Positions 12,375 to 21,436 of a stretch of 64,000 nucleotides of DNA are shown piece after piece. Made by a program: the position numbers and the translations under genes. The stretch lies in assembly GCF_007558725.1 (NCBI RefSeq), contig NZ_VLPL01000003.1:558001-622000 (forward strand), read 5' to 3'. Within the stretch, counting starts at the first letter, position 1. Every line of letters starts with the position of its first letter. The stretch comes from Fluviicola chungangensis. Lineage in GTDB: Bacteria > Bacteroidota > Bacteroidia > Flavobacteriales_D > Crocinitomicaceae. Below the pieces are notes generated by a model. It saw only the letters and a program-made list of their open reading frames with translations. It had not been told where the DNA came from and ran no database searches.

Positions 12375-12937
12375 AAGGATATATTTAACCAGTTTTGGAT
12401 CATTTTTCTTCCGTGTGGAGTTAAAATCGATTCCGGGTGAAATTGAACTCCGATCGTTGGATATACGTTGTGCTGAATGGCCATTACAACAGCATCTTCA
12501 GTCAATGCAGTAACTTCCAATTCGCTTTCTGCAGCAATTTGAGTTTGCCAGCTGTGGTATCTCCCGACAGTTATTCTCTGCGGAAGGTTTTGGAAAATGT
12601 CCGAATTCTTTGTAAGGATTATTTGAGAAGATTTTCCGTGAACAGGTTCCGGACATGGAATCAACGGATTTCCAAAATAGACCGAGATTGCCTGATGTCC
12701 GAGGCAAATGCCTAAGATGGGTTTTCTTCCGTGGTATCGATTAATTACCTCCAAAAGTTCACCGGCCTCAGCTGGGATGCCGGGTCCCGGGGAAAGTAAA
12801 ATCGCATCAACGGATTCCAATGTTTCAAAATCAATCCGGTTGTTCCGTTGAACAATGACTTCGTGTTGTTCTTCTTTGATGTACCTGATGAGGTTAAAAA
12901 CAAAGGAATCAAAGTTGTCTATTACTGCAATTTTCAT
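12371..12937 (-). CDS. trpG: Anthranilate synthase glutamine amidotransferase component
   Basis: A 188-aa class I glutamine amidotransferase that supplies ammonia to TrpE. The nucleophile is C78 in GICLGHQAI; the His-Glu pair lies in GVQFHPESI near the C-terminus. The oxyanion segment SPGPGIPAEAG is also clear. The start at 12937 (MKIAVIDNF) gives a 4-bp ATGA overlap with trpE, like most junctions of this operon, and is preferred over a frame start at 12961. As in other bacteria, the same subunit might also serve aminodeoxychorismate synthase, since no separate pabA was seen here. Confidence 0.94.
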   Translation of the reverse strand: MKIAVIDNFDSFVFNLIRYIKEEQHEVIVQRNNRIDFETLESVDAILLSPGPGIPAEAGELLEVINRYHGRKPILGICLGHQAISVYFGNPLIPCPEPVHGKSSQIILTKNSDIFQNLPQRITVGRYHSWQTQIAAESELEVTALTEDAVVMAIQHNVYPTIGVQFHPESILTPHGRKMIQNWLNISL

Positions 12938-14313
12938 TGGAAATTTGTTTTTGAGGCACACTTGATCGCTGAGCGGATTGCACCTAATTTGTTTGTCACT
13001 TCTTCTAATTCGCTTTCAGGAACGGAATCCAGAACAATTCCGGCCCCAGCCTGGTAACGCAATGTATTGTTCCTGCTTAACGCGCTTCGAATAATAATTG
13101 CCAGGTTCATGTTTCCATTGGTGTGGATGAATCCGACAGCTCCGCCATAAAATCCGCGTTCGTTTTTCTCATAGAGATTGAGAAGTTCCAAAGCTTTTGG
13201 TTTGGGTGTTCCGGAAAGGGTGCCGGCAGGAAAAGTTCCGTTGAATAAGGACAATGCGTCTTCTTCTGTTTGAGCAGTTACTTTGGAAACTAAGTGGATC
13301 ACATGGGAGAAATGCTGAATTTCCTTGAAGGATTCTATTTTAACCGAATGACAGAACTTGCTTAAATCGTTTCGGGCCAAATCTACCAGCATGGTATGTT
13401 CGGCATTCTCTTTTTCGTCATCAATTAATTGCCGGATAAGTGCATTGTCTGTAATTGGATCACCTGTTTTCCGGACAGTGCCGGCGATCGGATGAATTTC
13501 CGCTTTTCCTTGCTTTAACTGAATTTGTGTCTCCGGCGAAGATCCGAATAAACGATATGATTCCATATCCAGATAAAAGAGATAGGGAGAAGGATTAAGT
13601 CGGCGTAATTGCCTGTAAACCTGAAAATCATCTCCGAAAAACGCTTGTTCAAAAGATCTGGATACAACCAGTTGAAACACATCTCCCCGGTACAAGTGTT
13701 GTTTTGCACGTTGAACCAATTTCAGGAAATCACTTTCGGAAACGAGCGGTTTTTCTCTTTCCGGAACTTCAAATGGCAAATCCGAAGCTTTATTAAATTG
13801 AAGGAGTTCCAGGAATTCCTGATCGCTCTTTGCAGTTTGATCGGTTGAATTAAACAGAATACTTCCGCGATCATGAAAATGGTCTATTACAATCAGGTAT
13901 TCAAAAAGCGTAAATCGGGCCAAAGGAAGAGCAGATGGAGTTCCTAATGAACAAATATGCTCTTCAAAATGAGCAAATTCAAAGCTGAAATAACTTAGGA
14001 AGCCGTTGTTGTCAAGCTGGTTTTGGAACAAATACTTTTCCAGCAAAGGTTGGATTTGATTGGTGATTTTCCGGGTCTGATCAATCGGAATGATAGATAC
14101 TTCATTGGGTTCATTGATCCGAATTTCGGTCGGAAAAACTTGAATATCAATCAGCGGATTGAGTCCGATAAAGGATTTGGATGCAGTTCGGTCGCTGTAC
14201 TCATTGCTTTCAAGCAGGCAAGGGGACCGGAATCTGTTTTTAAATGATAAATAGAGTCCTACGGAAGTGTGGTTATCACTGTTAAAGGAATATTCTTGTG
14301 TGTAAATTTTCAT
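12934..14313 (-). CDS. trpE: Anthranilate synthase component I
   Basis: A 459-aa chorismate-utilising enzyme that makes anthranilate from chorismate, the committed step to tryptophan. An N-terminal LLES motif (residues 33-36) is the known Trp feedback-binding element, so allosteric inhibition is expected. Catalytic-domain blocks include FGSSPETQ, HPIAGTVRKTGDP, LVDLARNDLSKF, FPAGTLSGTPK and GAGIVLDSVPESE. The start at 14313 (MKIYTQEYSF) is chosen because a start at 14367 would place the coding region over the attenuator hairpin. It is the first structural gene of the operon, downstream of the Trp-codon leader peptide at 14386-14433. Confidence 0.95.
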   Translation of the reverse strand: MKIYTQEYSFNSDNHTSVGLYLSFKNRFRSPCLLESNEYSDRTASKSFIGLNPLIDIQVFPTEIRINEPNEVSIIPIDQTRKITNQIQPLLEKYLFQNQLDNNGFLSYFSFEFAHFEEHICSLGTPSALPLARFTLFEYLIVIDHFHDRGSILFNSTDQTAKSDQEFLELLQFNKASDLPFEVPEREKPLVSESDFLKLVQRAKQHLYRGDVFQLVVSRSFEQAFFGDDFQVYRQLRRLNPSPYLFYLDMESYRLFGSSPETQIQLKQGKAEIHPIAGTVRKTGDPITDNALIRQLIDDEKENAEHTMLVDLARNDLSKFCHSVKIESFKEIQHFSHVIHLVSKVTAQTEEDALSLFNGTFPAGTLSGTPKPKALELLNLYEKNERGFYGGAVGFIHTNGNMNLAIIIRSALSRNNTLRYQAGAGIVLDSVPESELEEVTNKLGAIRSAIKCASKTNFQ

Positions 14314-14330
14314 GACGAGATTTTTGGGAA

Positions 14331-14364
14331 TAAAAAAACGGCCTGCCACAAGTGACAAGCCGTT
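14331..14364 (-). terminator. trp attenuator terminator
   Basis: On the minus strand AACGGCTTGTCAC (14364-14352) pairs with GTGGCAGGCCGTT (14349-14337) over about 12 bp around a very short loop, followed by seven T (14338-14332). It lies between the leader peptide and trpE. The competing structure pairs AAGTGAC, inside the leader peptide (14396-14402), with GTCACTT in the 5' arm (14350-14356). A proximal stem, CAGTTA (14410-14415) with TGACTG (14394-14399), would free the terminator when the ribosome reads through the Trp codons. Confidence 0.8.
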
Positions 14365-14385
14365 CAAAAAAATAGGTATAATGAA

Positions 14386-14433
14386 TTATGCGTCAGTCAC
14401 TTTTTGAGTTAACTGCCACCACCAAAATTTCAT
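14386..14433 (-). CDS. trpL: trp operon leader peptide with three tandem Trp codons
   Basis: A 15-codon frame encodes MKFWWWQLTQKVTDA. Codons 4-6 are consecutive TGG (14416-14424), a pattern very unlikely by chance directly upstream of trpE. A promoter (14456-14485) places the transcript start about 15 nt before the ATG, and an intrinsic terminator (14331-14364) separates it from trpE. A ribosome waiting at the Trp codons would cover CAGTTA and free AAGTGAC for the antiterminator. A ribosome that reaches the stop codon would cover AAGTGAC and let the terminator form. The name trpL is used by analogy of function, not sequence homology. Confidence 0.8.
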   Translation of the reverse strand: MKFWWWQLTQKVTDA

Positions 14434-14485: not shown

Positions 14486-14514
14486 GAAAAAATGTGAAAT
14501 AAATAGTTTTATGT

Positions 14515-14547
14515 TTGATTTTGGTTAAATAAATAACATTACTTTTG
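14515..14547 (+). promoter_or_regulatory. Promoter of the aroG(Q)-aroA leader
   Basis: A -7 TACTTTTG at 14540-14547 matches TAnnTTTG, with a TTG at 14515-14517 upstream (22-bp spacer). Transcription would begin near 14553, about 5 nt before the leader-peptide ATG. It is back-to-back with the trp promoter, whose -33 element is only about 30 bp away. Confidence 0.6.
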
Positions 14548-14557
14548 GCGGGTAGTC

Positions 14558-14608
14558 ATGCAAAAAACAACAATAAAATCTTTTCGTTGGCACTTTGAAA
14601 TACGCTGA
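14558..14608 (+). CDS. Aromatic leader peptide upstream of aroG(Q)
   Basis: A 16-codon frame encodes MQKTTIKSFRWHFEIR. Phe codons are at positions 9 and 13 and a Trp codon at position 11. It sits between a promoter (14540-14547) and a four-segment attenuator (14591-14674) upstream of the DAHP synthase/chorismate mutase gene. Codons 12-15 form the first arm of an 11-bp hairpin, so a ribosome stalled at Trp11 or Phe13 would mask that arm. Aromatic codons are fewer than in the E. coli pheA leader, but the RNA folding supports it. Sensing of phenylalanine, possibly with tryptophan, is inferred. Confidence 0.65.
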   Translation: MQKTTIKSFRWHFEIR

Positions 14609-14674
14609 ATTTCGAAGTGTAAATACGTGTTTGTTATCAATCCCGCTTCGTATTAGAGCGGGATTTTTGTTTTT
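14591..14674 (+). terminator. Four-segment attenuator before aroG(Q)
   Basis: Segments 1 and 2: CACTTTGAAAT (14591-14601) pairs with ATTTCGAAGTG (14609-14619), 11 bp with one G-U. Segments 2 and 3: CGAAGTG (14613-14619) pairs with CGCTTCG (14644-14650), 7 bp. Segments 3 and 4: AATCCCGCT (14639-14647) pairs with AGCGGGATT (14657-14665), a 9-bp terminator stem followed by T5-G-T5 (14664-14674). The three pairings are mutually exclusive in the classical 1:2, 2:3, 3:4 order. Confidence 0.75.
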
Positions 14675-14705
14675 AAATGAATTAAAAAAAGTAATTTGGT
14701 AAATC

Positions 14706-15788
14706 ATGAGCAGCATCATTCAAAAAGGAGGAAAAAGACCGATCATTATCGCAGGGCCTTGCAGTGCAGAGACCGAAGAACAAATGATGGAAACGGCATT
14801 GCAAATCAAGGAGTTTTGTAATATCGACATGTTGCGGGCAGGAATCTGGAAACCACGCACCCGGCCCGATTCGTTTGAAGGTGTGGGAGAAGTCGGTTTA
14901 AGCTGGCTGGTGGACGCCGGAAAAGTACTCGGTGTTCCAACAACTACGGAAGTGGCCAACACCAAACATGTGGAGCAAGCGTTGAAAGCCGGTGTAGATA
15001 TTCTTTGGATCGGAGCACGTACGACGGTCAACCCCTTTGCTGTTCAGGATATTGCGGACGCACTGAAGGGAGTGAAGATTCCTGTTATGGTGAAAAATCC
15101 GGTCAATCCGGATCTGGAATTATGGATTGGTGCTTTTGAACGCCTGGAAAAATCCGGAATTACGGAATTGGGAGCAATTCATCGTGGTTTTTCCGTTTAT
15201 AAGCATGCCAAATACCGGAACGTACCCAATTGGGAAATTCCGATTGCTTTGCATGAACGGCTTCCCGATCTGCCGATTATCAATGATCCGAGCCATATTA
15301 CGGGAAACAGGAATTTGCTTTTGGAAGTTTCACAAAAGGCAATGGATTTAAACTTTGATGGATTGATCATTGAGACCCATCGAAATCCGGATGTTGCCTG
15401 GTCGGATGCCGCACAGCAGCTGACACCGGAGAATTTGGGTGTGTTGTTGGATTCACTGGTGTTGAGGTCTCAAAATTCGGAAAAACTGGATAGTGAACAC
15501 ATTTCGGTGATCCGTGAGAAAATAGGGGATCTGGATGATCGCTTATTTGATATCCTGACCGCCAGAATGCAGTTAAGTGAGGAGTTGGGAATTTTCAAAA
15601 AGGAACACAATATCACCATCCTTCAGCCGGAACATTGGAAAAAGATCATTTCCGCCAGGCTCAACCGGGCTTCGGAATATAAATTGAGTGATCGTTTTGT
15701 GCGCCAGGTCATGGATGCGATTCATCAGGAATCGATTCGTCACCAGGTTCGCGTGATGAACCATTCTTCAGATAAGGAAGAGCAATGA
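14706..15788 (+). CDS. DAHP synthase fused to C-terminal chorismate mutase
   Basis: A 360-aa bifunctional enzyme. Residues 1-260 or so are a type I-beta DAHP synthase, which joins PEP and erythrose 4-phosphate at the entry to the shikimate pathway. Motifs are IAGPCSAET, AGIWKPRTRPDSFEG, IGARTTVNPF, IHRGFSVY, INDPSHITGNR and IIETHRNPD. Residues 265-355 are an AroQ-type (CM2) chorismate mutase (VIREKIGDLDDRLFDILTAR). The order DAHPS then CM matches the well-known Bacteroidota enzyme, e.g. of Porphyromonas gingivalis, in which the mutase part mediates feedback by prephenate. Its stop overlaps aroA by 4 bp. Expression is probably controlled by the upstream leader-peptide attenuator. Confidence 0.94.
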   Translation: MSSIIQKGGKRPIIIAGPCSAETEEQMMETALQIKEFCNIDMLRAGIWKPRTRPDSFEGVGEVGLSWLVDAGKVLGVPTTTEVANTKHVEQALKAGVDILWIGARTTVNPFAVQDIADALKGVKIPVMVKNPVNPDLELWIGAFERLEKSGITELGAIHRGFSVYKHAKYRNVPNWEIPIALHERLPDLPIINDPSHITGNRNLLLEVSQKAMDLNFDGLIIETHRNPDVAWSDAAQQLTPENLGVLLDSLVLRSQNSEKLDSEHISVIREKIGDLDDRLFDILTARMQLSEELGIFKKEHNITILQPEHWKKIISARLNRASEYKLSDRFVRQVMDAIHQESIRHQVRVMNHSSDKEEQ

Positions 15789-17023
15789 AGCAGTTAATCC
15801 GTCCGAAGGTTCTTTCAGGGAATATTGCTGTTCCGGCATCGAAAAGTGACGCTCAAAGAGCTGTTCTTTGTGCCGCCCTTGCTGAAGGAACTTCCAGGCT
15901 GACCGGAATGGGAAAGAGTGATGACGAACAGGCAATGCTGCGCGCAGTTGAACAAATGGGAGCTGAGATTGTTCCGATTTCAGATACAATAATTGAAATT
16001 ACCGGTATTAAAAGTCTGCCGGAAGGATTGCACTTGTCTGCCGGAGAATCCGGTTTGGGGTTGCGTTTACTGACTTGTGTTACTTCTGGTTTTAACAGGG
16101 AAGTTTCGCTTACAGGAAGGGGAAGTTTGCTTGCGAGGCCAATGAATTTCTTTGATACTGTTTTGCCCCGGTTTGGTGTTCAGGTTTCAACGAATAACGG
16201 GTTCTTGCCAATAAAAGTCCATGGACCGCTTCAGGGAACAGATTTGCAGGTCGATGGTTCTCTGAGTTCTCAGTTTATTTCGGGTTTGCTGATGGCGCTT
16301 CCTGGAAGCAGGAAGGCGAGTTCATTGGAGGTCATTGACATGAAATCCGGGCCGTATATCCAAATGACAATCCATACTTTAAGTCAGTTTGGAATCGTGA
16401 TTGAAAACGAGCATAACCGGTTTACAATTCCGGGAAAGCAACAATACCGGCCGGCTCACTATTCCATCGAATCCGATTGGAGTTCTGCAAGTTATTGGCT
16501 GGTTGCTGCGGCTATCGGACACCCGGTTTCAGTTTCCGGACTAACTATGCGTAGTTTGCAGGCAGATAAGTCATTATTGAAGGCTCTGATTGCTGCCGGT
16601 TGCAGGATCGTAGCGGAAGAAGATTTAATTCGGGTAGACGGTTCAGGTCTCCGGGCTTTTGAATTTGATGCGACCGATTGTCCCGACTTGTTTCCTGCTT
16701 TGACTATTCTGGCTGCAAAATGTGATGGCGTATCGACCATTCGGGGAGTAAACAGGTTGATTCACAAGGAAAGCAATCGCGGAATAGCTTTGCAGACCGA
16801 ATTTGGAAAAATGGGATTAAAAATTGATTTGAATGACGATCTGATGGTGATTTATGGATCGGGGAAATTGCATGGAACAGAGGTGGATTCACATCACGAT
16901 CACCGGATTGCCATGTCCCTAGGTATCGCAGGAAGTATCGCAAACGGTGACACTATTCTCACAAATGCAGACGCAGTTTCTAAAAGTTATCCCGATTTTT
17001 GGGAGCACTTCAACTCTTTGTAA
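15785..17023 (+). CDS. aroA: EPSP synthase (3-phosphoshikimate 1-carboxyvinyltransferase)
   Basis: A 412-aa enzyme of the shikimate pathway that transfers the enolpyruvyl group of PEP to shikimate 3-phosphate. SKSDAQRAVLCAALA (N-terminal substrate loop), SLSSQFISGLLMALP and DSHHDHRIAMSLGIAG (C-terminal block) identify it. Where class I enzymes have LFLGNAGTAxR, this one has AGESGLGLR (residues 86-94), a substitution also familiar to me from other Bacteroidota. It is translationally coupled to the DAHPS-CM gene by an ATGA overlap, forming a two-gene aromatic operon. Confidence 0.94.
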   Translation: MKQLIRPKVLSGNIAVPASKSDAQRAVLCAALAEGTSRLTGMGKSDDEQAMLRAVEQMGAEIVPISDTIIEITGIKSLPEGLHLSAGESGLGLRLLTCVTSGFNREVSLTGRGSLLARPMNFFDTVLPRFGVQVSTNNGFLPIKVHGPLQGTDLQVDGSLSSQFISGLLMALPGSRKASSLEVIDMKSGPYIQMTIHTLSQFGIVIENEHNRFTIPGKQQYRPAHYSIESDWSSASYWLVAAAIGHPVSVSGLTMRSLQADKSLLKALIAAGCRIVAEEDLIRVDGSGLRAFEFDATDCPDLFPALTILAAKCDGVSTIRGVNRLIHKESNRGIALQTEFGKMGLKIDLNDDLMVIYGSGKLHGTEVDSHHDHRIAMSLGIAGSIANGDTILTNADAVSKSYPDFWEHFNSL

Positions 17024-17369: not shown

Positions 17370-19379
17370 TTATTCCAAATAAACCGGTTGGCTTTTCCCG
17401 TAATCTACCTGGTAATCAAATTTGAACTGTTTTGTTTCTCCTTTGTTCGTGGTGAATTTCCAGGTCAGGATCCCGGTTTTTTCGTCCAAATCAGCATCGA
17501 CGAATGTTCCGCGTTTCACTTTGATATCGTCATTGACAGAGATCGGGAAGTGATCTTTCACAATGATCGGAATGGAAGCTCCACCGTTATTGCGAATGGT
17601 GAAATCCCAGGTTACTTCGTATTTGTAACGGTTTCCAAGCAGGCGGGTTTTACTCATTTCCTCACTTCGTTTTCTGGAAGCAACAATTTTCTTGTCTTTT
17701 CCTAAAGAAAAGCTCAGGGTATCTTTCGAAGAATTCACATCGATGTAGCTTTTACCGATATACGTTCCGTCAAAGTACAGGTTTGATTCTCCATTTAGAA
17801 GGTTCAATTTTTCCCATCCGGAAATCTGCGCCACCAAATACACCGATTCATCCAGTTTCGGCACAGCGTGGTATTCGTAATCGGCTTTCATTTGATAAGT
17901 GGCAATGGCCACACGGTGGTCTGCATCATCTGAAGGAACCGAGAACGGTGTTTCGATCTGGAATTCCATGCGCAGGTCTTTTTCTACCTGGTTGGCGATG
18001 GTAGTTGAATAAACTCCTTGAGTAACGGCTCCTCTGCTGGTGCCTGGAATCCGCTCCAAATCTCTTTTACTAAGTTTCGCTGTTCTGGTTGCTCCGTCTA
18101 TTTTATAAGCACTGATACTCACTTCGTCTAATTTCCCTGAATAGTCGTCATCCAAGTTCAAATCTTTATTCTGTCCGTTATCAAATCTCCCAAAAGCGTT
18201 TCCACCAATGGGATTATTTAATGTTTCCATAGCAACAGCTTCCGGATAGAGTTGTGTTTTGATATAAGGCGCATTGATGTTGACGTATTGTGAATGATAA
18301 CCCAAATAGGAAATGATATAGCTACGTTCGCCTCTTGGAACAGAGAAGGTAAAATGTCCCGTAGCATCGGTTGTGAAACTGTTCAATGGATTGTTGTTCA
18401 TGGAGATTTTTGCAAAAGCCAACGGCTCGCCGGTGGTTGCATCGGTTACTTCTCCGTGGATGGTTTCGCCGTCAAAATTGTATTCCGGGATGTAACGTTC
18501 AACAACCTGTTTTCTGGGAGCCGGTGTATAATAATTCACATACCACGGATCGATTTTTGGTTCCTGGGTATTGTCGTACGGATCGTTGGTGGAAAGGATG
18601 AGTTTTACATTTTTCCAGTCGATCCCGGTATTTTGTGTCACCAAACCTTTGGCTTCGAGCAAAACCGGTGCGCCAACTCCGTTGCTTCGCATGTCGTAAT
18701 ACGGTTTCCAGGAAGCTTTGTGGGTGATGTAGGTGAAATCGAACTCGATTGTTCCGGCTTTTTCCACATCCAGTTCTACTTCCACTTCCGTGTAATTCAC
18801 CACCGGTAAGCCTTTGCGGGTATTGATTTCCTGTTCGATGGTATTGATCTTGCGGACCACGGCTTCAATCTCGGAATCCAATTGTGATTTGCGGGTGTTG
18901 ATCTCGGACAGCTTTGCATGGAAAAAGGTCGAAGCTTCTTTCAGCTCTGCAATTTTCATGGCCTGCTGCTGACTGCTCAGGCTGTTGTTCTTCATCAAAA
19001 GCTGTTCGTCCAGAAGCAGGACTTTGTATTCGTCACGCAGAGTACGCTCCTGCTTCTCCAATGCTTTTTTGCGATCGTTCTTTTCAGTTAACTCCGTTTC
19101 GGCAATCGTTTTATCGTCGAAATTCTTTCTGGTCCGGACACTTAAGATCGTGGCTGACTCGGAGCATTTCAGCTGAATGGAACTGGGGTCCAAAAAATCG
19201 GTTAGTTTTTGGAATACAACGAATTGTTTCCCGGTTCCCAGGCTGAGTTCTTTTGCATGTTCTACCTGCGCTCCTTCTTTGAAAACAGTGACTTTCCGGA
19301 TCGGGGCTTCTGCTTTGGTTTCCTTCTGGCTCCAGCCAAAAACGGGGAAAAGTACCAGGATTAAAATTATTTTTTTCAT
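17370..19379 (-). CDS. DUF4139 (MuiA-like) exported protein, copy 1
   Basis: A 669-aa exported protein with a signal peptide (MKKIILILVLFPVFGWSQ) that fixes the start at 19379. The N-terminal part (APIRKVTVFKEGAQVEHAKE) and a coiled-coil segment (about residues 90-190, rich in Glu, Lys and Gln) are typical of the DUF4140/DUF4139 'mucoidy inhibitor MuiA' family. A carboxypeptidase-regulatory-like beta domain (IHGEVTDATTGEPLAFAKI) is inserted at about residues 310-385, followed by a linker of some 80 residues, then the rest of DUF4139 (IANQVEKDLRMEFQIETPF to the C-terminus). It is nearly identical to the next gene except in that linker (about 18000-18240). The function of the family is poorly known. 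Confidence 0.85.
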   Translation of the reverse strand: MKKIILILVLFPVFGWSQKETKAEAPIRKVTVFKEGAQVEHAKELSLGTGKQFVVFQKLTDFLDPSSIQLKCSESATILSVRTRKNFDDKTIAETELTEKNDRKKALEKQERTLRDEYKVLLLDEQLLMKNNSLSSQQQAMKIAELKEASTFFHAKLSEINTRKSQLDSEIEAVVRKINTIEQEINTRKGLPVVNYTEVEVELDVEKAGTIEFDFTYITHKASWKPYYDMRSNGVGAPVLLEAKGLVTQNTGIDWKNVKLILSTNDPYDNTQEPKIDPWYVNYYTPAPRKQVVERYIPEYNFDGETIHGEVTDATTGEPLAFAKISMNNNPLNSFTTDATGHFTFSVPRGERSYIISYLGYHSQYVNINAPYIKTQLYPEAVAMETLNNPIGGNAFGRFDNGQNKDLNLDDDYSGKLDEVSISAYKIDGATRTAKLSKRDLERIPGTSRGAVTQGVYSTTIANQVEKDLRMEFQIETPFSVPSDDADHRVAIATYQMKADYEYHAVPKLDESVYLVAQISGWEKLNLLNGESNLYFDGTYIGKSYIDVNSSKDTLSFSLGKDKKIVASRKRSEEMSKTRLLGNRYKYEVTWDFTIRNNGGASIPIIVKDHFPISVNDDIKVKRGTFVDADLDEKTGILTWKFTTNKGETKQFKFDYQVDYGKSQPVYLE

Positions 19380-21415
19380 GAGCTTAAAATCTGTTGTTCT
19401 ATACAATGATGAAAATTTTGTGTAATTCCATAAGATTATTCCAAATAAACCGGTTGGCTTTTCCCGTAATCTACCTGGTAATCAAATTTGAACTGTTTTG
19501 TTTCTCCTTTGTTCGTGGTGAATTTCCAGGTCAGGATCCCGGTTTTTTCGTCCAAATCAGCATCGTCGAATGTTCCGCGTTTCACTTTGATATCGTCATT
19601 GACAGAGATCGGGAAGTGATCTTTCACAATGATCGGAATGGAAGCTCCCCCGTTATTGCGAATGGTGAAATCCCAGGTTACTTCGTATTTGTAACGGTTT
19701 CCAAGCAGGCGGGTTTTACTCATTTCCTCACTGCGTTTTCGGGAAGCAACAATTTTCTTGTCTTTTCCTAAAGAAAAACTCAGGGTATCTTTCGAAGAAT
19801 TCACATCGATGTAGCTTTTACCGATATACGTTCCGTCAAAGTACAGGTTTGATTCTCCATTTAGAAGGTTCAATTTTTCCCATCCGGAAATCTGCGCCAC
19901 CAAATACACCGATTCATCCAGTTTCGGCACAGCGTGGTATTCGTAATCGGCTTTCATTTGATAAGTGGCAATGGCCACACGGTGGTCTGCATCGTCTGAA
20001 GGAACCGAGAACGGAGTTTCGATCTGGAATTCCATGCGCAGGTCTTTTTCTACCTGGTTGGCGATAGAAGCATCGTATAGTCCCGGAGTACTATCCATAT
20101 TATGTGAGAAATTATATGCTTCTGCTTTTTTACCTTTTGAACGTAATTTGCGATCGGCAGAAATACCCGCTGTCAATTCCAATTCACTCAATTCTGTTGT
20201 TCCTAAGGCATCGGTAAGATAGATTTCCTGACCTGTTGTTACTCGACTGATATTGCTTGAGGTCGGGAACATGTTTTCAAGCTTTTCCATAGCGATCGCT
20301 TCCGGATAGAGTTGTGTTTTGATGTACGGAGCATTGATATTTACGTATTGAGCACGGTATCCCAAATAGGAAATAGTGTAACTGCGCTCGCCTCTTGGAA
20401 CAGAGAATGTAAAGTGTCCTGCGGCGTCTGTTGTAAAGCTGTTTAACGGGTTGTTGTTCATGGAAATTTTTGCAAAAGCCAACGGCTCGCCGGTGGTTGC
20501 ATCGGTTACTTCTCCGTGGATGGTTTCGCCGTCAAAATTGTATTCCGGGATGTAACGTTCAACAACCTGTTTTCTGGGAGCCGGTGTATAATAATTCACA
20601 TACCACGGATCGATTTTTGGTTCCTGGGTATTGTCGTACGGATCGTTGGTGGAAAGGATGAGTTTTACATTTTTCCAGTCGATCCCGGTATTTTGTGTCA
20701 CCAAACCTTTGGCTTCGAGCAAAACCGGTGCGCCAACTCCGTTGCTTCGCATGTCGTAATACGGTTTCCAGGAAGCTTTGTGGGTGATGTAGGTGAAATC
20801 GAACTCGATTGTTCCGGCTTTTTCCACATCCAGTTCCACTTCCACTTCCGTGTAATTCACCACCGGTAAGCCTTTGCGGGTATTGATTTCCTGTTCGATG
20901 GTATTGATCTTGCGGACCACGGCTTCAATCTCGGAATCCAATTGTGATTTGCGGGTGTTGATCTCGGACAGCTTTGCATGGAAAAAGGTCGAAGCTTCTT
21001 TCAATTCTGCAATTTTCATGGCCTGCTGCTGACTGCTCAGGCTGTTGTTCTTCATCAAAAGCTGTTCGTCCAGAAGCAGGACTTTGTATTCATCACGCAG
21101 AGTACGCTCCTGCTTCTCCAATGCTTTTTTGCGGTCGTTCTTTTCAGTTAACTCCGTTTCGGCAATCGTTTTATCGTCGAAATTCTTTCTGGTCCGGACA
21201 CTTAAGATCGTGGCTGACTCGGAGCATTTCAGCTGAATGGAACTGGGGTCCAAAAAATCGGTTAGTTTTTGGAATACAACGAATTGTTTTCCGGTTCCCA
21301 GGCTGAGTTCTTTTGCATGTTCTACCTGCGCTCCTTCTTTGAAAACAGTCACTTTCCGGATCGGGGCTTCTGCTTTGGTTTCCTTCTGGCTCCAGCCAAA
21401 AACGGGGAAAAGTAG
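17372..21415. repeat. Tandem duplication of the DUF4139 gene
   Basis: Two direct copies of about 2 kb lie 2060-2066 bp apart. Identity is almost continuous from the stop codons to inside the signal-peptide codons, where it ends abruptly at AACGGGGAAAAGTA (about 19341-19354 and 21401-21414). It is interrupted by one divergent block, about 18000-18240 in copy 1 and 20065-20300 in copy 2. Only scattered single-base differences occur elsewhere. Confidence 0.9.
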
Positions 21416-21436
21416 TAAGAGTATTAATTTGTTCAT
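19436..21436 (-). CDS. DUF4139 (MuiA-like) exported protein, copy 2
   Basis: A 666-aa exported protein with signal peptide MNKLILLLLFPVFGWSQ. It has the same order as copy 1: N-terminal DUF4140-like strands, coiled coil, inserted carboxypeptidase-regulatory-like beta domain and DUF4139. Outside the central linker the two proteins are almost identical. In the linker, after LYPEAIAMEKLEN, the sequences share essentially nothing until SIANQVEKDLRMEF. Here the linker holds a stretch of the type ELELTAGISADRKLRSKGKK. Copy 1 lies 56 bp downstream on the same strand and the two may be co-transcribed. Confidence 0.85.
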   Translation of the reverse strand: MNKLILLLLFPVFGWSQKETKAEAPIRKVTVFKEGAQVEHAKELSLGTGKQFVVFQKLTDFLDPSSIQLKCSESATILSVRTRKNFDDKTIAETELTEKNDRKKALEKQERTLRDEYKVLLLDEQLLMKNNSLSSQQQAMKIAELKEASTFFHAKLSEINTRKSQLDSEIEAVVRKINTIEQEINTRKGLPVVNYTEVEVELDVEKAGTIEFDFTYITHKASWKPYYDMRSNGVGAPVLLEAKGLVTQNTGIDWKNVKLILSTNDPYDNTQEPKIDPWYVNYYTPAPRKQVVERYIPEYNFDGETIHGEVTDATTGEPLAFAKISMNNNPLNSFTTDAAGHFTFSVPRGERSYTISYLGYRAQYVNINAPYIKTQLYPEAIAMEKLENMFPTSSNISRVTTGQEIYLTDALGTTELSELELTAGISADRKLRSKGKKAEAYNFSHNMDSTPGLYDASIANQVEKDLRMEFQIETPFSVPSDDADHRVAIATYQMKADYEYHAVPKLDESVYLVAQISGWEKLNLLNGESNLYFDGTYIGKSYIDVNSSKDTLSFSLGKDKKIVASRKRSEEMSKTRLLGNRYKYEVTWDFTIRNNGGASIPIIVKDHFPISVNDDIKVKRGTFDDADLDEKTGILTWKFTTNKGETKQFKFDYQVDYGKSQPVYLE

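Follow-up and report, generated by a model that had tools for sequence, protein, structure and literature searches.

A putative tryptophan-led attenuator before the DAHP synthase-chorismate mutase gene of Fluviicola chungangensis and its relatives, back to back with the trp operon attenuator

The stretch of DNA analysed here (the window, 64,000 nucleotides of the Fluviicola chungangensis genome) carries a trp operon on the minus strand that diverges from a gene for a DAHP synthase-chorismate mutase fusion protein (DAHPS-CM), and two opposed leaders lie between them. The features of the locus are as follows:

About 12934-14319, minus strand: trpE, of the trp operon
14336-14365, minus strand: terminator of the trp operon attenuator, a 13 bp stem with a T run
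14386-14433, minus strand: leader of the trp operon, MKFWWWQLTQKVTDA, stop included, on the divergent side
14514-14547, plus strand: putative Bacteroidota promoter, TTTG at 14514-14517 or 14520-14523 and -7 box TACTTTTG at 14540-14547, a match to the flavobacterial TAnnTTTG box
14558-14608, plus strand: leader ORF of 16 codons, MQKTTIKSFRWHFEIR, ATG at 14558 and TGA at 14606-14608; relatives have Trp-bearing leaders in the same place
14582-14584, plus strand: Phe9 codon
14588-14590, plus strand: Trp11 codon, 5 codons before the stop (a conserved distance, mostly 4-5 codons), the inferred main control codon
14594-14596, plus strand: Phe13 codon
14591-14601, plus strand: segment 1, CACTTTGAAAT, the protector strand; the 1:2 pairing is present in the MFE structure
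14609-14619, plus strand: segment 2, ATTTCGAAGTG, which pairs with segment 1
14613-14619, plus strand: antiterminator strand CGAAGTG within segment 2, 7 bp with segment 3, one of them G-U
14644-14650, plus strand: segment 3, CGCTTCG, within the 5' arm and loop of the terminator
14639-14665, plus strand: intrinsic terminator (3:4), arms AATCCCGCT (14639-14647) and AGCGGGATT (14657-14665), 9 bp
14666-14676, plus strand: T-rich tail of the terminator
14706-15788, plus strand: DAHPS-CM, the gene under the proposed control; PF00793 at 5-245 and PF01817 at 269-347, both above cut-off
15785-17023, plus strand: aroA (EPSP synthase), TIGR01356 above cut-off, overlapping the DAHPS-CM stop

The aroA gene presumably belongs to the same operon as DAHPS-CM. 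An earlier note on this DNA had described the 16-codon leader with Phe9, Trp11 and Phe13 and the mutually exclusive 1:2, 2:3 and 3:4 pairings; all were recovered base for base where it had placed them, including the position of segment 1 over leader codons 12-15. Transcription of the leader is predicted to start around 14552, leaving a 5' UTR of about 6 nt; in flavobacteria, the TAnnTTTG box lies at -12 to -5 (PMC9723704). Of 29 relatives, 12 have such a box within the 45 nt that precede the leader ATG, against a mean of 1.35 in shuffles. Another box, GTAATTTGGT (14691-14700), stands right before the DAHPS-CM ATG and reads GTAATCTTGT in more distant members of the genus; throughout the genus it is conserved with the leader present or not. 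Being near TAnnTTTG or TAnnTTGY, it might serve as an internal promoter that would yield an almost leaderless mRNA and bypass the attenuator. Further along the window, two tandem long ORFs on the minus strand (17370-21436; 678 and 666 aa) are near-identical, their main difference being one internal stretch; they are a recent duplication.

The DAHPS leader region folded better than its dinucleotide shuffles (z -2.5, 2/200). When the intervening segment was shuffled, both the 1:2 and the 2:3 duplexes beat about 98% of the shuffles (p 0.020 and p 0.017, respectively). Within 14 kb, the DAHPS-side terminator and that of the trp operon are the top two; the total number of terminator-like sites was not above that of shuffles. 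In the fold of the window sequence, just 4 of the 9 base pairs of the terminator are excluded by the 2:3 helix, and placing a ribosome at Trp11 does not keep the terminator from prevailing at equilibrium. Since the antiterminator is the less stable of the two structures, the decision between them must be kinetic, as it is in the E. coli trp operon.

To compare the region, the DAHPS-CM protein was searched in 150 genomes of the Crocinitomicaceae and 245 of the order, the DNA upstream of the hits was compared and TrpE was sought in the same genomes. Under a strict rule, which required a terminator preceded by an ORF of 8-30 codons that starts with ATG and has an aromatic cluster including Trp, a leader was found in 29 of 52 loci from genomes with trpE and in 4 of 96 from genomes without it (Fisher p 1e-12, uncorrected for relatedness). 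The first fraction is a lower bound, since true leaders at L029, L050, L057 and L074 escaped the strict terminator rule; several of the 23 leaderless loci from genomes with trpE failed only through the terminator thresholds. Where trpE is divergent to DAHPS-CM, nearly all loci have a leader, the exceptions being G124, G007 and G044. We also applied an amino-acid-blind rule, which asked merely for an ATG ORF whose end lies 5-50 nt upstream of the best terminator; 30 loci had such an ORF, and it contained Trp in 29 of them. We estimated the background rate of the strict rule from the regions upstream of 421 ORFs in the window and the relatives' loci: there were 34 matches, 29 before DAHPS-CM or trpE genes and 5 elsewhere, two of the latter being leaders of pheA-type operons. 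Leader sequences diverge fast within the Crocinitomicaceae and retain their Trp codons (examples are MNFSKQNFWWWFKTR, MRKITTYAWLWNDIE, MNTTIKVWWQSMTISL and MKNTEFCLNFYWCSCAH); the closest relatives keep F-W or F-Y-W together with the 2:3 pairing, while the rest of the peptide is divergent. Thus, two checks that bear directly on the earlier proposal, aromatic leader codons and the 2:3 pairing in relatives, both came out in its favour.

The geometry of the element is conserved as well. Among 29 dereplicated leaders, segment 2 begins 0-7 nt after the stop, which the last Trp usually precedes by 4-5 codons. At the same number of loci, the mean energy of the 2:3 duplex was -9.79 kcal/mol for cognate partners versus -6.98 for swapped ones (z -6.7, none of 20,000 permutations as low), and that of the 1:2 duplex -8.2 versus -7.04 (z -2.7, p 0.004). 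These comparisons indicate that the 2:3 pairing is held by coordinated change and that 1:2 is less important. The 1:2 duplex, on which the earlier note had laid emphasis, is strong in the window and weakly conserved across the family; the conserved design consists of 2:3 and of a segment 2 that directly follows the stop. A weak 1:2 with a retained 2:3 is what would be expected if a ribosome standing at the stop covered segment 2 by itself. In folds run without a shuffled control, a ribosome at the last Trp left at least 5 bp sequestering the 5' part of the terminator in 29 of 29 loci; in the same kind of fold, again without a shuffled control, a ribosome at the stop did so in 12 of 29, with weaker energies. 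Several hallmarks of an attenuator can be recognized in the sequence: a leader ORF with end-product codons, an intrinsic terminator, a conserved and exclusive 2:3 pairing and suitably placed control codons, all consistent with a putative attenuator.

Many terminators in 5' regions belong to riboswitches, and the small ORF could be incidental to a terminator controlled by a ligand-binding RNA, a T-box or a protein. We consider this the least likely explanation and highly improbable: no Rfam family (trp leader, T-box or riboswitch) reached its gathering score in the 64 kb window, the gap between stop and terminator is merely 17-36 nt and poorly conserved, and the Trp codons keep a fixed register to the stop.

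Which amino acid is sensed was judged from the leader codons and from the distribution of the leader. Tryptophan makes up 13% of leader residues versus 1.1% expected (in a set partly selected for Trp) and is present in every leader; Phe or Tyr is found near it in 23 of 31. A reading in which Phe (or Tyr) codons count as much as Trp, so that starvation for any aromatic amino acid would turn DAHPS-CM on, can point to the window itself, where Phe9 and Phe13 flank Trp11 and all three lie where a stalled ribosome would leave segment 2 free, and to the fact that DAHP synthase feeds all three aromatic pathways. Of the positions one to three codons ahead of the first Trp, 25 of 91 hold F or Y; the remaining positions of these leaders give 25 of 287, and the trp operon leaders give 8 of 63 (p 0.03 for the latter comparison), although the leaders are related and these enrichment p values are optimistic. 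About a quarter of the leaders lack F/Y near Trp (for example TWNWQ, SWSWG and VWWQS) and none lacks Trp; moreover, the leader is gone from trp-less genomes, which presumably still need DAHP synthase. Equal sensing of several aromatic amino acids is thus rather unlikely in our judgement. Since Phe/Tyr is enriched near Trp without being universal, the description of the element in the earlier note as a "Phe/Trp" attenuator is only partly right: the Trp half is borne out by its conservation and by the gain and loss of the leader with the trp pathway, and the Phe half does not hold for all leaders.

On a 71-row tree of the enzyme, some 10 of 16 phylogenetically independent pairs showed a joint change of leader and trpE, and none showed a change in opposite directions (p ~0.001). 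In the genus of the window organism, six genomes (G010, G104, G088, G059, G030 and G046) lack TrpE, TrpB and the leader. As the leader and the trp operon are neighbours, a single deletion may remove both; in three genomes (G043, G086 and G012), the leader stays with DAHPS-CM and trpE lies on another contig. These three also bear on a rival view, in which leader and terminator do not control DAHPS-CM and are a side effect or remnant of the adjacent trp attenuator, having been duplicated from it or inherited along with the divergent region. The element does lie mostly within the trpE/DAHPS-CM intergenic region, and some leaders persist where the trp operon is decayed or absent. Against this origin, trp leaders are of a different sequence (the NTNWWWHSTNSWCAWR type), the 2:3 pairing is kept by coordinated change in independent lineages, and the leader has remained with DAHPS-CM where trpE is elsewhere; we therefore regard a relic as very improbable. 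The persisting leaders (G069, locus L018; G081, L100; G091, L045) contain Trp and stand upstream of DAHPS-CM; they seem to represent an intermediate stage, in which the pathway has been lost and the leader has yet to go. As for the trp operon leaders of relatives (L016-L107), they show two Trp clusters, with a consensus like NTNWWWHSTNSWCAWR and the second cluster directly before the stop; the window's own (14386-14433, minus strand) retains the first cluster only.

A conserved Trp codon and a leader that tracks tryptophan synthesis together identify Trp as the signal that is conserved; Phe/Tyr probably acts as a secondary input in part of the lineages, the window's included. The parts and their placement, the conservation of the Trp codon and of 2:3, and the co-occurrence with tryptophan synthesis point with good confidence to a ribosome-mediated attenuator of the DAHPS-CM/aroA operon that would read mainly its Trp codon and, in this genus, probably the adjacent Phe codons too. 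In that sense, the presence of a second attenuator beside that of the trp operon, acting on DAHPS-CM as the earlier note had it, is supported by both anatomy and comparison. The mechanism is classical ribosome-mediated attenuation, for which we infer use of the promoter, translation of the leader, stalling and a change in read-through. When charged tRNA-Trp is plentiful, the ribosome would reach the stop and cover segment 2, so that segment 3 would pair with segment 4 and the terminator would stop transcription before the gene. A ribosome stalled at Trp11 (or at Phe9 or Phe13) would halt short of segment 2 and block segment 1; segment 2 could then pair with segment 3 ahead of the synthesis of segment 4, and the polymerase would read on into the gene. 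If the leader were not translated, 1:2 would form and termination would be favoured.

More tentatively, and with rather less than even confidence, one intergenic region of the Crocinitomicaceae may hold two opposed attenuators that differ in their control codons: the trp operon leader would rely on Trp alone, and the leader for the enzyme of shikimate entry would be Trp-led with Phe/Tyr in addition. Through the two together, aromatic tRNA charging would govern both supply and branch flux, with no known repressor involved.

The genome encodes a second DAHP synthase (L239:1459-2457; TIGR01361, 319 bits versus a cut-off of 267.75), so the attenuated DAHPS-CM is one of two isozymes; a type II DAHP synthase was not found in the genome. 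The second enzyme has no leader of the DAHPS-CM type at L239 and may have its role in another pathway. It adjoins a KdsC-like phosphatase and a further ORF upstream (L239:773-2457, minus strand, on contig C1 of G000). The argument that a sole DAHP synthase would have to sense Phe as well as Trp is ruled out by the presence of this second enzyme.

If correct, this reading means that an RNA switch couples entry into the shikimate pathway to the supply of tryptophan. For this phylum, the literature that we searched contains hints of leader-peptide attenuation and hardly any description of it. A transcriptomic study of Flavobacterium psychrophilum reports strong indications that amino-acid operons are preceded by leader-peptide attenuators (PMC9723704). 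The many independent losses of trp in one family also provide a natural experiment on the fate of a regulatory leader deprived of its signal pathway. A puzzle is that shortage of Trp would raise an enzyme whose chorismate mutase domain diverts chorismate from tryptophan. No report of the DAHPS-CM leader in this clade was found in the literature searched, and an earlier prediction may exist. The Trp-led version on DAHPS-CM-aroA, its back-to-back pairing with the trp attenuator and its co-loss with trp appear unreported.

Among known systems, aroR-aroF of Corynebacterium glutamicum is a DAHP synthase attenuator that is Phe-responsive and whose leader contains Phe-Tyr-Phe (Neshat et al. 2014, as described in PMC11802643). 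Attenuation at shikimate entry, which the earlier note had taken for a non-textbook case, is thus known as such, and it is the Trp-led version on DAHPS-CM-aroA that appears unreported. As far as that description goes, both systems place a leader-peptide attenuator before a DAHP synthase gene; here Trp is conserved, the phylum is another one and a divergent trp operon carries its own attenuator. Phe and Tyr, the control codons in aroR, occur near Trp in only part of our leaders. With E. coli trpL, the element shares a short leader with Trp control codons, the 1:2/2:3/3:4 alternatives, a segment 2 just behind the stop and a T-run terminator; it differs in its target (DAHPS-CM/aroA instead of trp genes), in the Phe codons beside Trp, in its predicted near-leaderless start from a Bacteroidota-type promoter and in its poorly conserved 1:2. 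The E. coli pheA leader (pheL) likewise acts on a gene with a chorismate mutase domain, but it is Phe-rich rather than Trp-led, and its target is chorismate mutase-prephenate dehydratase. Phe/Tyr-rich leaders such as MKTLANSFFFFFYFYFWIT were found in Bacteroidales and other Bacteroidia MAGs (L180:1938-1997, L177:1769-1822, L183:1868 and L184:1698). At L177 and L180, such a leader and a terminator precede a pheA-DAHPS-CM operon (pheA-DAHPS-CM-aroB-aroD-aroC in L180); the arrangement resembles ours in the homologous DAHPS-CM and differs in being Phe/Tyr-rich and directly before pheA, and these leaders are a second, putative Phe-type attenuator family for the same enzyme. Finally, DAHP synthases dedicated to Trp, such as E. 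coli AroH and that of Simkania, offer a parallel in which one isozyme is tied to Trp supply and another is present in the genome. AroH is tied to Trp through repression by TrpR. The Simkania enzyme is encoded in the trp operon together with trpR (PMC3937554). In both, the link to Trp is made by means other than an attenuator of the gene's own, unlike that proposed here for DAHPS-CM.
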